From Thermobifida fusca NBRC 14071 = JCM 3263 (lineage in GTDB: Bacteria; Actinomycetota; Actinomycetes; Streptosporangiales; Streptosporangiaceae), in NCBI RefSeq assembly GCF_001592045.1, contig NZ_BCWB01000046.1, positions 1 to 64,000 on the forward strand: a stretch of DNA of 64,000 nt. The letters run 5' to 3'. The translations under genes were made by a program, and so were the position numbers. This document shows, piece after piece, positions 55,104-63,836 of this stretch. Each line of letters opens with the position of its first letter. Position 1 is the stretch's first letter. A model generated the notes under the pieces. It saw only the letters and a program-made list of their open reading frames with translations. It was not told where the DNA came from and searched no databases.

Positions 55104-56336
55104 TCAGTCCGCTTCAGCGGTGTCGTCCAGGCCGCCGCGCTGCTCGGCGCGGAGCGCGGCCAACGCGGTGGCGACCATGAACCGTGTCCCCACCCCGATC
55201 GCGGTCTCGTCCACGTCGAACGTGCCGCGATGCAAGTCGAGCATGGGACGGTCGGAATTCCCCCAGTGGGTGCCGAGCCGCGCATACGCGCCCGGCGTGG
55301 TCTCCAAATACCAGGCGAAGTCCTCGCCGCCCAGGCTCTGCGGAGTGGCTGCCACCGCCTGCTCGCCCAGCACCTGCACGCAGGCAGCGCGGAAGATCTC
55401 CACGCTGTTCGGCTCATTGATGGTGGGCGGCACGCCTCTGCGGTAGTCCAGTTCGGCCTGCACACCGTAGGCGGCGACCACCGAGTCCAGCAGTTCCTTC
55501 ACCACATCGGGGGCGGCATGCCAGGCCTCGTCGTCCAGGCAGCGCAGCGTCCCCTCCACCACCCCGTCGTCGGGGATAGCGTTGGGCGCGGAGCCGGCGC
55601 TGATCCGCCCCCATACCAGGCTGAGCCCGGCTCGGGGGTCCACCCGCCGCGACAGGGCGGCGGGCAGCTCAGTGACGATCTTGCTGAGGGCGTAGACCAG
55701 GTCTGCGGTCAAATGAGGCCGGGCGGTGTGCCCGCCAGGCCCGGACAGCCGCACCAGCACCTGGTCGCAGGCCGCGGTAATCGGCCCCGACCGGAGCCCC
55801 ACCTGCCCCACGGGAAGCCGCGGGTCGCAGTGGAGCGCGAAAATCCGGTCGACCCCTTCCAAACCGCCCGCGTTGATCACTTCGCGGGCCCCTCCCGGCA
55901 GTTCCTCGGCCGGCTGGAAAAGCAGCCGGACCCGGCCGGGCAGCGCACCGGCCCGCTCCTGCTGGGCGAGGAACAGGCCGGCGGCCAGCACGATCGTGGT
56001 GTGCACGTCGTGTCCGCAGGCGTGTGCCACGCCCGGGACAGTAGACCGGTAGGGAACGTCCTTCTCGTCGTTGAGGGGCAGCGCGTCAATGTCGGCACGC
56101 AGTGCCACCGTCGGACCCTCACCGGTACCGATATCGCAGATCAACCCAGTGCCCTGGGGGAGACGCAACGGTTTGAGCCCGGCGTCGATGAGCCGCTCCT
56201 CGATCCGCTGCGTCGTGCGGTGCTCCGCAAAAGCGAGCTCGGGATGCCGGTGAAGGTCGCGGCGGAACTCGACAAACTCCCGTTCCCGGTGCGCCAGGAA
56301 CACGGCCAACTGTTCGCGCAGGTCACGCCCCTGCAT
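55104..56336 (-). CDS. M20-family amidohydrolase (hippurate hydrolase-like)
   Basis: This 410-residue zinc peptidase-type enzyme hydrolyses N-acyl amino acids or related amides. It shows [35 protein letters not shown] (metal ligands), [17 protein letters not shown] (catalytic Glu) and [11 protein letters not shown] near the end. The start is uncertain: ATG 56336 overlaps the ligase stop by 14 bp and has a GGGGG run, whereas ATG 56375 would overlap by 53 bp. It is co-transcribed with the carboxylate-amine ligase. Substrate unknown. Confidence 0.85.
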
Positions 56337-57522
56337 GCGAGGGACCCCCATTTCTCGATGGATCTGTTCGACCATGGCTCGACCCGACCGCGGGTGCCCC
56401 AGCCCGGAACTCTTTGACCAGCGCGTCGACTACGTCCTTGAGGACGCCTCCCTGCCGGATAATGGCCCGCTGGCGTTCGTAGGATGCGCCGTAGTGGAGA
56501 ATCTCCGCGACCACGTCGAGGTCTTCGGCACACCCCAGGCGCTCAGCGATCGGCCGTAGTTCATGGAGCAGTTCGTACAGGTCGTCGCGCAGGGGGACGG
56601 TGCTCCCGCGCTCATCGATGATGATCCGGGCGTCCAACCCGTACCGGGTGGCTCGCCACTTGTTGTCGGTGACTACCCAACTCGACGGACTGGGCAGCCG
56701 GTATCCCCGATCGAGCTGCTGCTCGAACAACTGCACCAGGCTCTGCGACAGCGCGGCGGCCATGCCCACCTCGCGCACCGTGGGGATTCCGTCGAACATC
56801 CGGATCTCGACCGTGCCGAACTCCGGATGCGGCCGGATGTCCCACCACACTTCTTTGATGCTGGTGATGGTGCCTGCCCGCAGCAGCGTGTCCATGTACT
56901 CCTCGAACGCCCCCCAGTGCGCGAGCCGCGGCGGCGGCCCCGCCGTAGGCAGCGCACCGAAGACGATGGAACGGCTGGAAGCCAGTCCGGTGTCGTGCCC
57001 GCTCCAGAACGGGCTGGACGCGGTCAACGCGAGAAAATGCGGCAGGTAGCGGGAGAGCGCATTGACGATGGGGATGACCTTGTCGCGGTCGGTCACCCCC
57101 ACGTGGACATGGACCCCGAAGGTGAGGATGCGCCGGGCCAGCCACTGCATCTGTTCGATCAGTTCGCTGTAGCGCTGACTCGGGGCGAACTCTTGGTCCC
57201 GCCAGTCGTCGATCGGGTGGGTGCCGGCGCACGCCAGTTCGATTCCGCGGCCGTCCGCGGCCTGCGTGAGCCGTGCGACCGTGGCTGAGAGGTCTTCCTT
57301 GACTTCGTCCACGGTCTCGCAGATGCCGGTCACCACCTCGATCGTGCTCTGCATCAGCTCATGGCGCAGCGGGGGGTTGCTTTCGGCGCCACTGAGCTCC
57401 GGGAGTTCTTCCAGGAGTTTCTGGGCGTCCTGGCGCAGGTGGCCGCTGTCGCGGTCCACCAGTTGCAGTTCCCACTCCACTCCGAGGGTGGCCCGCTTCG
57501 AGGGGTTGAATTCAATGGTCAT
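56323..57522 (-). CDS. Carboxylate-amine ligase (YbdK / glutamate-cysteine ligase 2 family)
   Basis: The 399-residue protein has the GCS2 pattern: ATLGVEWELQLVDRDSGHL at the N-terminus (metal/ATP acidic residues), PPLRHELMQSTIEVVTG, GVHVHVGVTDRDKVI and DIRPHPEFGTVEIRMFDGIPTV. Members have weak glutamate-cysteine ligase activity in E. coli (YbdK), and the true amide product is often unknown. Pairing with an M20 amidohydrolase suggests synthesis and turnover of one N-acyl compound. GGAGGG is 5 nt before ATG 57522. Confidence 0.85.
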   Translation of the reverse strand: MTIEFNPSKRATLGVEWELQLVDRDSGHLRQDAQKLLEELPELSGAESNPPLRHELMQSTIEVVTGICETVDEVKEDLSATVARLTQAADGRGIELACAGTHPIDDWRDQEFAPSQRYSELIEQMQWLARRILTFGVHVHVGVTDRDKVIPIVNALSRYLPHFLALTASSPFWSGHDTGLASSRSIVFGALPTAGPPPRLAHWGAFEEYMDTLLRAGTITSIKEVWWDIRPHPEFGTVEIRMFDGIPTVREVGMAAALSQSLVQLFEQQLDRGYRLPSPSSWVVTDNKWRATRYGLDARIIIDERGSTVPLRDDLYELLHELRPIAERLGCAEDLDVVAEILHYGASYERQRAIIRQGGVLKDVVDALVKEFRAGAPAVGSSHGRTDPSRNGGPSHAGA

Positions 57523-58129
57523 GTCCGCCCTCCGCGCTGTTCGGCAGGAAACCGCTCCGGGTGCACGGCGCATCGGACATCGGGGTCGATGCCCTGTGCG
57601 CAGCGCATAGCCGTTTCGCTCCCTGTTGCTCGCCGACGCGTGTGGCGGACCGCGAGGGACCGGATCGCGGGGTCAGCGAAACGCCGTTTCCTCCTCGACG
57701 GCGAGAAAACGCGGGAATCGCACCGGGCTCGCGGAAAAGCGGCGGAGCGTGCTCTAAGGCCGTGCCGCCCCGTTCCGTTTGGGTTGCCGTCGCCGGGCCG
57801 CTCCGGTCGGGACTCAGTCCGCGGTGACGGCACTCGGGTGCAGCCGGTCGCTGCCGAACACTGCAACGCGTCGCCTCCCACCACGCTACCGAAAGAACCC
57901 GGAAACCGCTCGGAAGTGACCAACACGTAATGCCTCCGTCACACTCCAGCAGCGTGTTCCACCACACACGCCGCTTCTGTCCCTACCCAGGCGGCACGGC
58001 CCTCCCCCGCGTAGACCGGGCGCTCTCTTCCCGCTCCTACAGTGAACAACGACGCCCCCGCCCACAGCCCCGCGATGAGCTGCGGGTCTGTGGTCTGCGC
58101 CGCACCGAGTCACCGGGGAGGACGACACT
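57523..58129. other. 607-bp divergent intergenic region
   Basis: This region lies between the ligase and the galactokinase-like gene. Open frames in it have no ribosome sites and Arg/Pro/Ser-biased composition typical of non-coding high-GC DNA. Only short GC stems were seen. A promoter for each flanking gene is expected, but no convincing -35/-10 pair could be picked. Confidence 0.55.
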
Positions 58130-59317
58130 GTGAAGCTGTTGAGGTCCGACCGAAAACCAATTCCGGTGGATGCTTCCACGGTCGCGGCATCCCGGGCCGC
58201 AGACCGGGCGGAAACCGCGTTCCGCGCCGCCTACGGCCGCGCCCCGGCCGGCGTGTGGTGGTCCCCCGCCACACTCCCCCTCCTCGGCGACTATGCGGGC
58301 GGCCACGACGCACGAGTGCTGTCAGTCGCCCTCCCGTGGGGAGTCGCGGCCGCGCTCGCCCCCGCCCCAGCGCCCGCCGTGGACATCCGCACTACCCGGT
58401 CCCCCAACCGTGCCGTGCGCTTCACCGCCCCGCGCCTCCCCCGCCGGCTCCCCGACTGGGCGGCAGCACTGCCCGCGGTCCTCACCGCAGCAGCGCACCA
58501 GGGACGCGGGCTGCAGATCATGCTCGACCTCGGCCCGTTCGACGCTGCCCCGGCTCTCACCGCCGCCTACGCGGTGCTGCTCGCCGCCACCGAACTCCAC
58601 CAGGGGGCGGACGCCGCAGCAGATAGGTCCGCGCTAGCCCGCACCGCGCGGGAGCTCCTCGCCGACCACCTCGTCCCGGATGCCGCCGAGGCCATCCCCG
58701 ACACCGCGCTGCGCGCCACCGCCGACCACGCGTTCCTTGCCGACTTCTGGACGGGCCGCGGCCGCCTGCTACCGCTGCCCCTTGCCCAAGCGGGACTGCG
58801 GCTCCTCGTCGTGGACGCCGGGACCGGACCGCTACCGAAACGGACCCTCGCCCAGCGGCGGGAGGAATGCGCGCGGGCCGCCCGAGCCCTCGGCGTGTCC
58901 TCGCTGCGCGAAGTCTCCGACCTCGCCGCTGCCCTGGCCCGCATCGACGACGCGGCGCTGCGGCACCGCATCAGGCACGCGGTCGCGGAAACCCACCGGG
59001 TCAACGCGGTCGTGGGCCTGCTGCGCGCAGGCTCCGCCGCGGAGATCGGTCCCGCGCTCAACGCGGGGCACCTGTCGCTGCGGGACGCCTTCGCCACGGT
59101 CTGCCCCAGGCTGGACACTGCGGCGGACACCGCCGTCCGCAAAGGTGCACGGGGCGCCCGCATGGCCGGTTCTGGCCACCGCGCGGCCGCTCTCGTCCCC
59201 GCCGAACGGGTCGACGCGGTGCGTGCGGGCATCCACGCCGCTTTCACCGCGCGCCGCTGGTCTGCGCCGCTGCTGGGGGTCGCCGACCCCGCCCCCGGCG
59301 CGCACCGGCTGCGCTGA
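58130..59317 (+). CDS. Degenerate galactokinase-like GHMP protein
   Basis: The 395 residues follow galactokinase from end to end: R-x-x-E-C-x-x-A-A-R-x-L-G-V and SLR-V appear at about 245-265, and HRVNAVVGLLRAG and HLSLRDAFATVCPRLD at about 285-325. All three GHMP signatures are eroded: the sugar loop is PATLPLLGDYAGG, the ATP loop lacks the GLSSSAA serines (GPFDAAPALTAA), and the C-terminal MxGGGFGG is MAGSGHRAA. Catalysis is doubtful. GTG 58130 has GGGGAGG 8 nt upstream and the frame is intact, so it is expressed rather than a pseudogene. Confidence 0.75.
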   Translation: MKLLRSDRKPIPVDASTVAASRAADRAETAFRAAYGRAPAGVWWSPATLPLLGDYAGGHDARVLSVALPWGVAAALAPAPAPAVDIRTTRSPNRAVRFTAPRLPRRLPDWAAALPAVLTAAAHQGRGLQIMLDLGPFDAAPALTAAYAVLLAATELHQGADAAADRSALARTARELLADHLVPDAAEAIPDTALRATADHAFLADFWTGRGRLLPLPLAQAGLRLLVVDAGTGPLPKRTLAQRREECARAARALGVSSLREVSDLAAALARIDDAALRHRIRHAVAETHRVNAVVGLLRAGSAAEIGPALNAGHLSLRDAFATVCPRLDTAADTAVRKGARGARMAGSGHRAAALVPAERVDAVRAGIHAAFTARRWSAPLLGVADPAPGAHRLR

Positions 59318-59425: not shown

Positions 59426-60640
59426 ATGGCTGACAGACCCCACCCCTACGACCGCGCCCCCGGCGGATCGTCGGGAAGCCACGACCGGACCGGCGTGTTC
59501 CGACGCAACCCCGACGGTGGCCTCCCCGACCGGATCGACAGCCTCTACCGGCCGGAACCCGCGGCGCGCTCCGCATCGGACGCTGCCGCGACCCGACGGC
59601 TCTCCCGGACCAGCGGCACCCCGCCCCGCCGCCCCACCCCCCGCAGCCGGGGCCGGGACAGCGGCGGATGGGAACGCCGAGAGCGCGAACGCCGGGCCCG
59701 GCGCCGCAAGAAAGCGGCGGTGCTCGTCCTGGTGCTGCTCCTCCTGCTTCCCACAGTCGGCTACCTGTGGGCGAACTCCCGCCTGAACCGCGTGGCAGCC
59801 CTGGTCCCCTACGAGGGCCGCCCCGACGACCAGCCGGGCACCACCTACCTCATCGTCGGATCCGACAGCCGAGAAGGCCTCAGCGACGAGGACATGGAGG
59901 CGTTGCGGACCGGCAAAGCCGAGGGGAAGCGCACCGACACGATCATGGTGCTCTACGTGCCCACCGAAGGCCGGCCCGCCATCATCAGCGTGCCCCGCGA
60001 CTCTTACGTGGAGATCCCCGGCATCGGAGCCAACAAGATCAACGCCGCCTACGCGGAGGCGCTCGGCGGCGGCCCCGCCACCCTGGTGCGCACCTTCGAA
60101 CAGGCCAGCGGGGTGCGGATCGACCACTACGTGGAGATCGGATTCGCGGGTTTCGTCGACATCGTCGACGCCGTGGGCGGGGTAGAGTTGTGCCCGGAAG
60201 AAGCGATGGAAGACCCCAAGGCCGGCTTGGACATCGAAGCGGGCTGCCAGGTGATGGACGGCCCCACCGCCCTGGGCTATGTGCGGACCCGGGCAACCCC
60301 CCGCGCCGACTTGGACCGCATCCAACGCCAGCGCGAGTTCTTCAGTGCCCTCATCCAACAAGCCACCGCCCCCAGCACCCTGTTCAACCCGTTCCGGTCG
60401 ATTCCGCTGGTCCTCAGCGGCACGTCGACGTTCAGCGTGGACGAAGGCGACAGCCTGATGGACTTGGCGTGGCTGGCGCTGGCCATGCGCGACTCTCCCG
60501 CGACTACGGCGGTCCCGGTCGGCTCCACCCCGACACTGGACGTCGGCTCGGTAGTGCTGTGGGACGAGGCCCGCGCCGAAGAGATGTTCGCTGCCATGCG
60601 GGAAGGCCGGCCGATCCCCGAGTCGGCGATGCAGGACTGA
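59426..60640 (+). CDS. LytR-CpsA-Psr (LCP) ligase without LytR_C domain
   Basis: This third LCP protein is 404 residues. It has a long Arg/Pro-rich cytoplasmic tail (1-90), one helix (about 95-112), and the LCP domain with TYLIVGSDSREGL (about 138), KRTDTIMVLYV, IISVPRDSYVEIPG, NKINAAYAEALGG and DLDRIQRQREF. It lacks the C-terminal LytR_C domain seen in the two others. A AAGGCGAG site precedes ATG 59426. It is likely an envelope polymer ligase; it follows the galactokinase-like gene by 108 bp. Confidence 0.92.
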   Translation: MADRPHPYDRAPGGSSGSHDRTGVFRRNPDGGLPDRIDSLYRPEPAARSASDAAATRRLSRTSGTPPRRPTPRSRGRDSGGWERRERERRARRRKKAAVLVLVLLLLLPTVGYLWANSRLNRVAALVPYEGRPDDQPGTTYLIVGSDSREGLSDEDMEALRTGKAEGKRTDTIMVLYVPTEGRPAIISVPRDSYVEIPGIGANKINAAYAEALGGGPATLVRTFEQASGVRIDHYVEIGFAGFVDIVDAVGGVELCPEEAMEDPKAGLDIEAGCQVMDGPTALGYVRTRATPRADLDRIQRQREFFSALIQQATAPSTLFNPFRSIPLVLSGTSTFSVDEGDSLMDLAWLALAMRDSPATTAVPVGSTPTLDVGSVVLWDEARAEEMFAAMREGRPIPESAMQD

Positions 60641-62711: not shown

Positions 62712-63230
62712 GTCCGACCGCTCCGCTGTCGCCGCCTCCACCGTTTCCTGGCTCACCGCACACCTCACGCTCGCGCATACCTGCCCCGGGGACCGGCCGA
62801 GGCGACAGGGCCCGCCGCGGCGCAACGGGTTCGCACACGCCCGAGCTGACGCACTCTGTGGGAGCGCCCTACGCCGCCTGCCGACAGCCCATGCTGCTGT
62901 CGGCCACACGTGGCCCCAATTCTATTGACCGCCACGGTCACGGCCGGGTGGAGAATCGGGCTCGTCGAAAACTGGGGAATCGTGACCTGATTACCAGAAA
63001 AACGCTGGAGACACCCCACCTCACCGCCTTACTGGCGGGTAAGGGCATAGAAATCCTACCTCGCGGGTAACCAGACAGGAGATGAGTGCCACGGGCGAGC
63101 GAGGACAAAAACCCCTATGAATCCCACTCAATCGACGGCATCCCGCCGTGCCGCGGTCGGCACGGCAGCCCCCGCTACCCCCCGTCGCAACCATCCACAC
63201 CGGTCGCGCTCCACAACAGGAGGAACAGCC
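62712..63230. other. 519-bp intergenic region upstream of FHA gene
   Basis: This region contains a TTGACC (about 62925) that could be a -35 for the FHA gene and a short CCGCC/GGCGG stem near 63030. A 12-codon open frame at 63082-63120 has its purine run abutting the ATG and is not credible. No other element was recognised. Confidence 0.5.
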
Positions 63231-63836
63231 GTGGACGGCCCCCACATACGGGTCGAGGAGACCGGCGAGATCCACCCCCTCACCGCGGAAGTGACGACAG
63301 TCGGACGCGGCAGGGGTGTCGACATCATCCTCTCCGACCCGAGTGTCTCGCAACTGCACGCGGAGATCGTCCGCCGCGGCCCGTACGTGTACGTCGTCGA
63401 CATGGGTCTGTCCCGCAACGGTACCCGTGTCAACGGCCGCCCCATCGCCCAGCGGGTTCTCCGTGAAGGCGACGTCATCAGCTTCGGCGCTGCTCGGTGC
63501 AGAGTCGGCGGACTGCCGGAAGAAGACCTCCGCCCCGAGGTGGAACTGCGCCGGGGCGGCACCCCCGAACTCACCCGCCGCGAGATCGACGTCCTGACCT
63601 CACTGTGCCGCCCCGCCCTGTCCGACGACGCCTTCGTTGCCCCCGCGACCGCCCGGCAGATCGCGGAGGACCTCGTGGTCACCGAAGCGGCGGTCAAACA
63701 GCACCTGCTCCGCCTCTACCAGAAGTTCCGCATCGCGGAGGGGGTCAACCGCCGCACCCGGCTGGCCAACGAGGTGGTGGCGTTGGGACTGATCCGCCCC
63801 ACACCGCCCTCCGAACGGCAGCGTCAGGCAAGCTGA
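63231..63836 (+). CDS. FHA-domain regulator with C-terminal helix-turn-helix-like region
   Basis: The 201-residue protein has an FHA domain (about 5-95: TTVGRGRGVDIILSDPSVSQLHAEIV, then LSRNGTRVNGRPI, the phosphothreonine-binding loops). About 110-190 resembles a LuxR/SARP-like winged helix (LTRREIDVLTSLCRP, ATARQIAEDLVVTEAAVKQHLLRLYQKFRI). It probably links Ser/Thr kinase signalling to transcription. GTG 63231 has AGGAGG 7 nt upstream and is preferred over ATG 63117, which has no ribosome site. It is convergent with folD. Confidence 0.8.
   Translation: MDGPHIRVEETGEIHPLTAEVTTVGRGRGVDIILSDPSVSQLHAEIVRRGPYVYVVDMGLSRNGTRVNGRPIAQRVLREGDVISFGAARCRVGGLPEEDLRPEVELRRGGTPELTRREIDVLTSLCRPALSDDAFVAPATARQIAEDLVVTEAAVKQHLLRLYQKFRIAEGVNRRTRLANEVVALGLIRPTPPSERQRQAS

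Follow-up and report, generated by a model that had tools for sequence, protein, structure and literature searches.

A degenerate galactokinase homologue in Thermobifida remains under purifying selection after loss of its active-site motifs

The stretch of DNA considered here, referred to as the window, covers 64,000 nucleotides of one contig of Thermobifida fusca NBRC 14071 = JCM 3263. It carries a gene related to galactokinase (GalK), flanked on the left by the gene of a GCS2-type glutamate-cysteine ligase and on the right by that of an LCP-family protein (Table 1). According to the list of open reading frames and the translation, the frame is uninterrupted from its start to its stop, as a sequence-only reading had stated, and the strong ribosome site of that reading is likewise present. 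The aligned Thermobifida orthologues also possess a purine-rich stretch 5' of the start. Further upstream, the motif TACAGTG is possibly a -10 element; a scan for the sigma-70 consensus gave no promoter-like site, a terminator scan was likewise empty, and a short-repeat scan returned nothing of note. Positions 63117-63836 of the window encode a protein with an FHA domain and weak helix-turn-helix matches, which occurs in this neighbourhood in many of the fetched family genomes as well.

Table 1. Features of the galK locus, in window coordinates.
Feature	Position	Strand	Basis or remark
GCS2-type glutamate-cysteine ligase, left neighbour	56323..57573	-	Syntenic; gal genes lie between GCS2 and galK in relatives
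TACAGTG, candidate -10 element (TACAGT)	58038..58044	+	Identical in four aligned Thermobifida genomes
Ribosome-binding site GGGGAGGA	58115..58122	+	7 bases 5' of the GTG; read from the sequence
GalK-homologous putative pseudoenzyme gene	58130..59317	+	395 aa; GTG start at 58130, TGA stop at 59317
Former sugar-binding loop SPATLPLLGDYAGGHDAR, eroded	58262..58315	+	Alignment to intact copies
Former ATP-binding GLSSSAA loop DLGPFDAAPALTAA, eroded and shortened	58526..58567	+	Alignment; PF00288 without match
Former catalytic loop HLVPDAAEAIPDTALRA, Asp replaced by Ile	58667..58717	+	Alignment; 0/10 conserved positions
C-terminal half, residues 216-395, more constrained	58775..59314	+	48/59 non-motif conserved positions
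Former C-terminal glycine motif, GARGARMAGS--GHRAAALV vs GARGARMTGGGFGG...	59144..59197	+	Alignment
LCP-family protein (LytR_CpsA_Psr), right neighbour	59426..60640	+	Syntenic

Against the PDB, the best match of the window protein is the galactokinase 6tep, at E 9e-23 when it is searched as a single sequence, and at E 2e-38 over residues 25-392 when a profile is built from it and three orthologues. By ancestry and chromosomal position, the frame is judged to be a real galactokinase homologue. The family-level scores present a different picture. Five NCBIfam galactokinase models give 68-107 bits against cut-offs of 227-509, and the curated model TIGR00131 gives about 73 bits against 226.65. Among the Pfam models, GHMP_kinases_C (PF08544) reaches 30.5 bits, above its cut-off of 21, and the galactose-binding signature 22.3 bits with a cut-off of 23.1. 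The ATP-binding GHMP_kinases_N (PF00288) is not matched by the window protein even with E values up to 1 admitted, nor by the orthologues of G001, G003 and the LCP-side copy of Actinorugispora; the three intact relatives that were scanned give 57-59 bits. The window protein is therefore set apart from the GalK described by TIGR00131 and by 6tep and other solved galactokinases: it is homologous to them and occupies the chromosomal site of its relatives' intact galK, which adjoins gal genes, but it lacks the ligand and catalytic loops. The sequence-only reading held that the fold is followed throughout; homology over nearly the whole protein stands, but as a statement about sequence, AlphaFold with three sequences being uninformative on the fold (mean pLDDT 36).

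In galactokinases, catalysis and the binding of galactose and ATP depend on a sugar loop, an ATP loop, a catalytic Asp and a C-terminal glycine motif. The corresponding motif set (sugar loop GRVNLIGEHTDYN, GLSSSAA, catalytic Asp and GGGFGG) is not found in the window protein. When aligned to an intact relative, the sugar loop has gone from APGRVNLIGEHTDYND to SPATLPLLGDYAGGHD, the ATP loop from PVGAALSSSAA to PFDAAPALTAA with more residues missing around it, and the glycine motif from TGGGFGG to AGSGH; the catalytic Asp of ILDQ/IMDQ is aligned with Ile. The erosion of the sugar loop, GLSSSAA and GGGFGG that had been read from the letters is thus confirmed in all three places by the alignment. 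The four lost loops and the missing PF00288 match support the view that the protein is a catalytically dead galactokinase homologue, as was proposed, and the label "galactokinase" in Thermobifida would be no guide to activity.

The losses are not spread evenly over the protein. For motif counts and dN/dS, 33 sequences were used (the window and 32 copies), the nearest and the weakest-scoring from 200 family genomes, leaving out G002, which is split, and G029/L092, where the hit crosses a stop near the start. The reference comprises 135 columns that are at least 90% conserved among 21 intact copies. The share of these retained by the window protein is 7/18 for the sugar loop, 6/12 for the ATP loop, 0/10 for the catalytic loop and 6/11 for the glycine motif; outside the motifs it is 11/25 in the N-terminal vs 48/59 in the C-terminal half. 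The 12 degenerate copies keep 45-58 of these 59 C-terminal positions outside the motif, with loops down to 0/10; four over-cut-off copies, taken for comparison, keep 52-59. Loss is concentrated in motif rather than other conserved columns at Fisher p < 0.05 in 10 of the 12 degenerate copies, the exceptions being G149 (0.10) and G024 (0.058). The loops have eroded unequally, with G024 retaining 12/12 of the ATP loop and G009 11/11 of the glycine motif. G024 represents an intermediate stage, in which GLSSSAA is still present but the catalytic Asp is gone and the sugar loop is partly lost; judged from this copy, the sugar and catalytic loops would have gone there before the ATP loop. The LCP-side copy of G009 has few changes and scores slightly under the cut-off.

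The source genome is 3.64 Mb in size, and a protein search of it returned no second homologue of the window protein; the galactokinase profile gave one further weak match, of 33 positions around the ATP loop (E 0.02). Profile and protein searches did not find GalT in any of the four Thermobifida genomes, and in all four GalE lies elsewhere in the genome. With GalK dead by its sequence and GalT not found, the galactose pathway in Thermobifida therefore appears broken at two steps. In relatives, more DNA lies between GCS2 and LCP than in the window. In G013, galT and galE stand immediately before galK within this interval, and GalT lies 1.1-1.3 kb from the site-matched galK in all seven genomes whose single GalT match shares a contig with it (G013, G026, G128, G045, whose contig stops short of LCP, G033, G047 and G058). 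In Thermobifida and Actinorugispora, GCS2 is about 0.6 kb from galK. Because the relatives have galT, and galE where checked, beside galK at this site, the window gene is read as the remnant of a lost gal operon. The earlier remark that no gal operon is nearby is true of the window, but relatives carry gal genes at exactly this place. A BrkB-family membrane protein gene is found in some relatives between galK and GCS2, at L078:8649-9830, L071:9458-10627 and L070:3788-5002, and is absent from that place in the window and in Actinorugispora.

Some genomes carry two copies of galK. In Actinorugispora (G044) and G009, a single GalT was found, next to an intact second galK at another site; it is the LCP-side copy that is degenerate. 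In G074 and G051, GalT also accompanies a second galK copy, and the LCP-side GalK is still over the cut-off; separation from GalT alone thus does not kill GalK. The LCP gene adjoins the dead galK in Thermobifida, Actinorugispora and G056, and the comparison with orthologues suggested by the sequence-only reading shows the same losses beside the LCP gene in the first two genera. This adjacency is inherited synteny, since the order GCS2-(gal genes)-galK-LCP-ICD also holds for intact galactokinases. No LCP gene was found within about 7 kb on either side of the dead galK in the genomes of another genus, g38, and no neighbour common to all lineages with a dead GalK was found among the fetched stretches. 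A functional link between GalK and LCP is rejected on account of the old synteny with intact GalK and of the g38 copies. In G163 and G111, the two g38 genomes checked, a galE-like epimerase gene lies directly upstream of the degenerate galK; with GalT absent and GalK degenerate, the g38 epimerase is read as having outlived its operon partners in place.

Across the family, 194 of 200 genomes have a match to the window protein, with up to nine candidates scored per genome. GalK exceeds the TIGR00131 cut-off in 181 of the 200, leaving about 19-20 without, and the PF02744 profile finds GalT in 175, leaving 25, among which G153, G163, G176, G180 and G191 are placed by elimination. Eleven of the 25 GalT-less genomes keep only a degenerate GalK (G000-G003, G024, G078, G056, G111, G149, G163 and G191), the motif evidence coming from the alignment in ten and from the separate pieces of G002 in the eleventh. 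All four Thermobifida genomes keep the degenerate orthologue, with common losses and in a common place. In g38, the degenerate GalK without GalT occurs in G191, G163, G149 and G111 (L079-L082), and the genomes G087, G131, G182 and G197 have GalK over the cut-off. Five further genomes are GalT-less yet have GalK over the cut-off (G007, G042, G049, G064 and G072); their galactose 1-phosphate may be handled by a divergent GalT or by a different route. Absence of GalT is therefore not always paired with a dead GalK. In the remaining GalT-less genomes, G090 and G176 have GalK matches with strong E-values, G057, G094, G117, G153 and G180 have none at E 0.001, and G084 and G144, which are 67% and 72% complete, have weak matches only. 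With 6 of the 25 showing no match at E 0.001 or a trace (G144), albeit in draft genomes, GalK would thus be dispensable in some lineages, and some lineages of the family seem to have lost galK outright. Only low-scoring GalK despite a GalT is seen in two genomes: G076, which is 74% complete and has its match at the edge of a contig, and G054, which is in 380 contigs (E 3.5e-55).

The orthologue of T. cellulosilytica TB100 (G002) lies in two pieces, and its sugar and ATP loops are changed in the same way as those of the other orthologues. On C8 (L065:7960-7985), a truncated gene from a different locus is joined to the second part of galK with an overlap of about 24 bases. Contig C10 breaks off within galK, and the remainder of that other gene opens contig C6. 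Judged from the arrangement of these pieces, the split is probably an assembly misjoin, and a true rearrangement is not favoured. A broken galK orthologue in G002 was set aside on the ground that the rest of each gene sits at a contig end.

Thirty-two derived residues, motif losses included, are fixed in four sequences, three from Thermobifida and one from Actinorugispora, so the active site died before these genera split. A tree was built from the ICD, GCS2 and LCP proteins of 27 genomes, in which fewer than half of the columns are available for the outgroup and for the g38 rows other than G149. The degenerate state requires three changes on this tree, two of them forced by well-supported branches, if G009 is taken as intact, and four changes, three of them forced, if G009 is counted as degenerate. 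Support for placing G056 with Thermobifida and Actinorugispora is no more than moderate (83/99). By parsimony, the family has seen about three separate losses of the active site in total. That g38 lost it separately is also favoured because four g38 genomes have GalK over the cut-off.

The selection acting on the gene was measured as dN/dS by the Nei-Gojobori method, uncorrected for GC-biased codon use. Start codons were set by a length rule, and the first part of several copies is unsure; because the g38 starts overlap galE, the N-terminal values were recomputed on residues 40-215 and 66-215. For the whole gene, dN/dS is 0.26-0.37 in three Thermobifida pairs (G000, G001 and G003) and 0.45-0.48 against Actinorugispora. 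In the same pairs, the LCP gene gives 0.20-0.27 and 0.25-0.35, and the neighbouring membrane protein 0.29-0.41 and 0.33-0.49; the window gene lies above LCP, GCS2, M20 and ICD in every genome pair compared. The hyp623 rows, whose frame contained internal stops, were excluded from these comparisons, as were the rows of an out-of-frame ADA query from the comparison of neighbourhoods. The degenerate gene is still under purifying selection after the loss of the active site in Thermobifida, and the earlier view of a frame kept intact is supported by dN/dS below 1 among orthologues.

The constraint differs between the two halves of the protein. The C-terminal half has dN/dS of 0.19-0.27 among the Thermobifida pairs, 0.36-0.41 (upper bounds no higher than 0.62) in comparison with Actinorugispora, and 0.24-0.46 in four pairs from g38. 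For the N-terminal half, the same three comparisons yield 0.27-0.47, 0.50-0.59 and 0.50-0.79, or 0.27-0.50, 0.55-0.56 and 0.33-0.78 on residues 40-215 only. The N-terminal half exceeds the C-terminal half in all 13 pairs of degenerate copies, which are not independent of one another, and in 10 of 11 pairs on residues 40-215. The exception is seen in G163-G149, where residues 40-215 (0.33) are tighter than the C-terminal half (0.45). In the pair of the window and G001, the halves are about equally constrained (N-terminal 0.27, C-terminal 0.23), and for G111-G163 the N-terminal value is as high as 0.79, its interval including 1 (0.78 on residues 40-215). Six intact pairs give 0.15-0.46 for the C-terminal and 0.18-0.34 for the N-terminal half, the latter being looser in only one of the six (G033-G146).

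Selection that persists, mainly on the C-terminal half, despite a dead site suggests a second, non-enzymatic job. On balance we favour the explanation that a former galactokinase has been kept as a pseudoenzyme, acting mainly through its C-terminal half, probably by partner binding without galactose or ATP. Comparison shows that the ancestral galactokinase stood in a gal operon between GCS2 and LCP, that GalT was lost from the genome, with galE surviving elsewhere, and that the death of the kinase site came before Thermobifida and Actinorugispora separated. The retention of the protein as a pseudoenzyme since then is shown by dN/dS below 1 and by orthologues in frame, and its job would lie mainly in the C-terminal half, probably in binding another protein or itself. 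The family galactokinase may already have had this second role while still an enzyme.

The main rival, which we regard as a serious though less probable account, is a relic in slow decay, in which GalT is gone, the kinase is useless and the site erodes, while the frame survives through the few stops of high-GC DNA and the mild harm of folding damage. All eleven degenerate-only genomes lack GalT, and the losses form graded stages, from few in G009 through G024 and G078 to most in g38 and Thermobifida; dN/dS above that of LCP, GCS2, M20 and ICD, the loose N-terminal half of G111-G163 and the high-GC antisense frames of the window, which are also long and open, point the same way. However, simple decay fits poorly with dN/dS well below 1 in both halves in Thermobifida, with a C-terminal half whose range in 13 degenerate pairs (0.19-0.46) is that of the six intact pairs, and with losses concentrated in the active-site loops. 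That these loops were instead rebuilt, in a kinase or ligand-binding enzyme of changed substrate, is improbable. Parts of the replacement loop (D.GPF..AP) are shared by four sequences from two genera, the same four in which the 32 derived states are fixed, but in Thermobifida the catalytic Asp has become Ile or Val and the loop Arg Thr, and the phosphate-binding Ser/Ala run is gone together with any PF00288 match. It is very doubtful that the sequence is retained as DNA and not for its protein, for instance to supply a promoter or leader to the downstream LCP gene; galK and LCP share a strand in the window with a gap of about 110 bases, but dN/dS is below 1 in the protein frame, in G056 and G026 galK lies opposite to the LCP strand, and in the fetched g38 stretches no LCP gene turned up around galK.

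The sequence-only reading had compared the protein with yeast Gal3. Gal3p differs from Gal1p in the GLSSSAA motif. In favour of a Gal3-type sensor of galactose and ATP, the window protein is of the same family and has been kept despite the loss of catalytic residues; the likeness is that of a galactokinase-family protein with a role other than catalysis. According to PMC7556753, however, the yeast sensors (the co-inducers Gal3p and KlGal1p) act by binding galactose and ATP. Both sites are destroyed in the window protein, and without GalT there is no complete Leloir pathway to regulate. Gal3-type sensing is therefore unsupported here and was dropped as the leading reading; we hold it to be extremely unlikely, since the window protein could not work like the yeast sensors without new sites. 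XOL-1 of Caenorhabditis may offer a closer analogy, with no descent implied; the window protein has lost the ATP loop, and its modelled fold has a pLDDT of 36. In PMC11349215, XOL-1 is described as a sex-determination protein with very little sequence homology to non-nematode genes, which has a GHMP-kinase fold, acts as a regulator and showed no detected ATP binding in vitro (citing Luz et al. 2003). Regulators on sugar-kinase-type folds are thus known from yeast and worms. Our literature searches, with most subscription papers outside their scope, found no described regulator derived from a bacterial galactokinase, nothing by title on this gene under Thermobifida fusca and galactokinase, and nothing on such a protein under actinobacterial galactokinase pseudogenes and the Leloir pathway.

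Returning to the retained pseudoenzyme, an older second role is suggested because other GalT-less lineages show the same outcome. We tentatively extend the explanation to the family, as a possibility that is more likely wrong than right: a non-catalytic function of the C-terminal half of GalK may predate the death of the enzyme and have been kept in several GalT-less lineages, about three times. If true, this would give bacteria a counterpart, working by a different mechanism, to the galactokinase-derived regulators of yeast. The repeated death of the site with retention of the C-terminal half would then represent a natural experiment that locates a hidden function of an ordinary enzyme and makes it testable.
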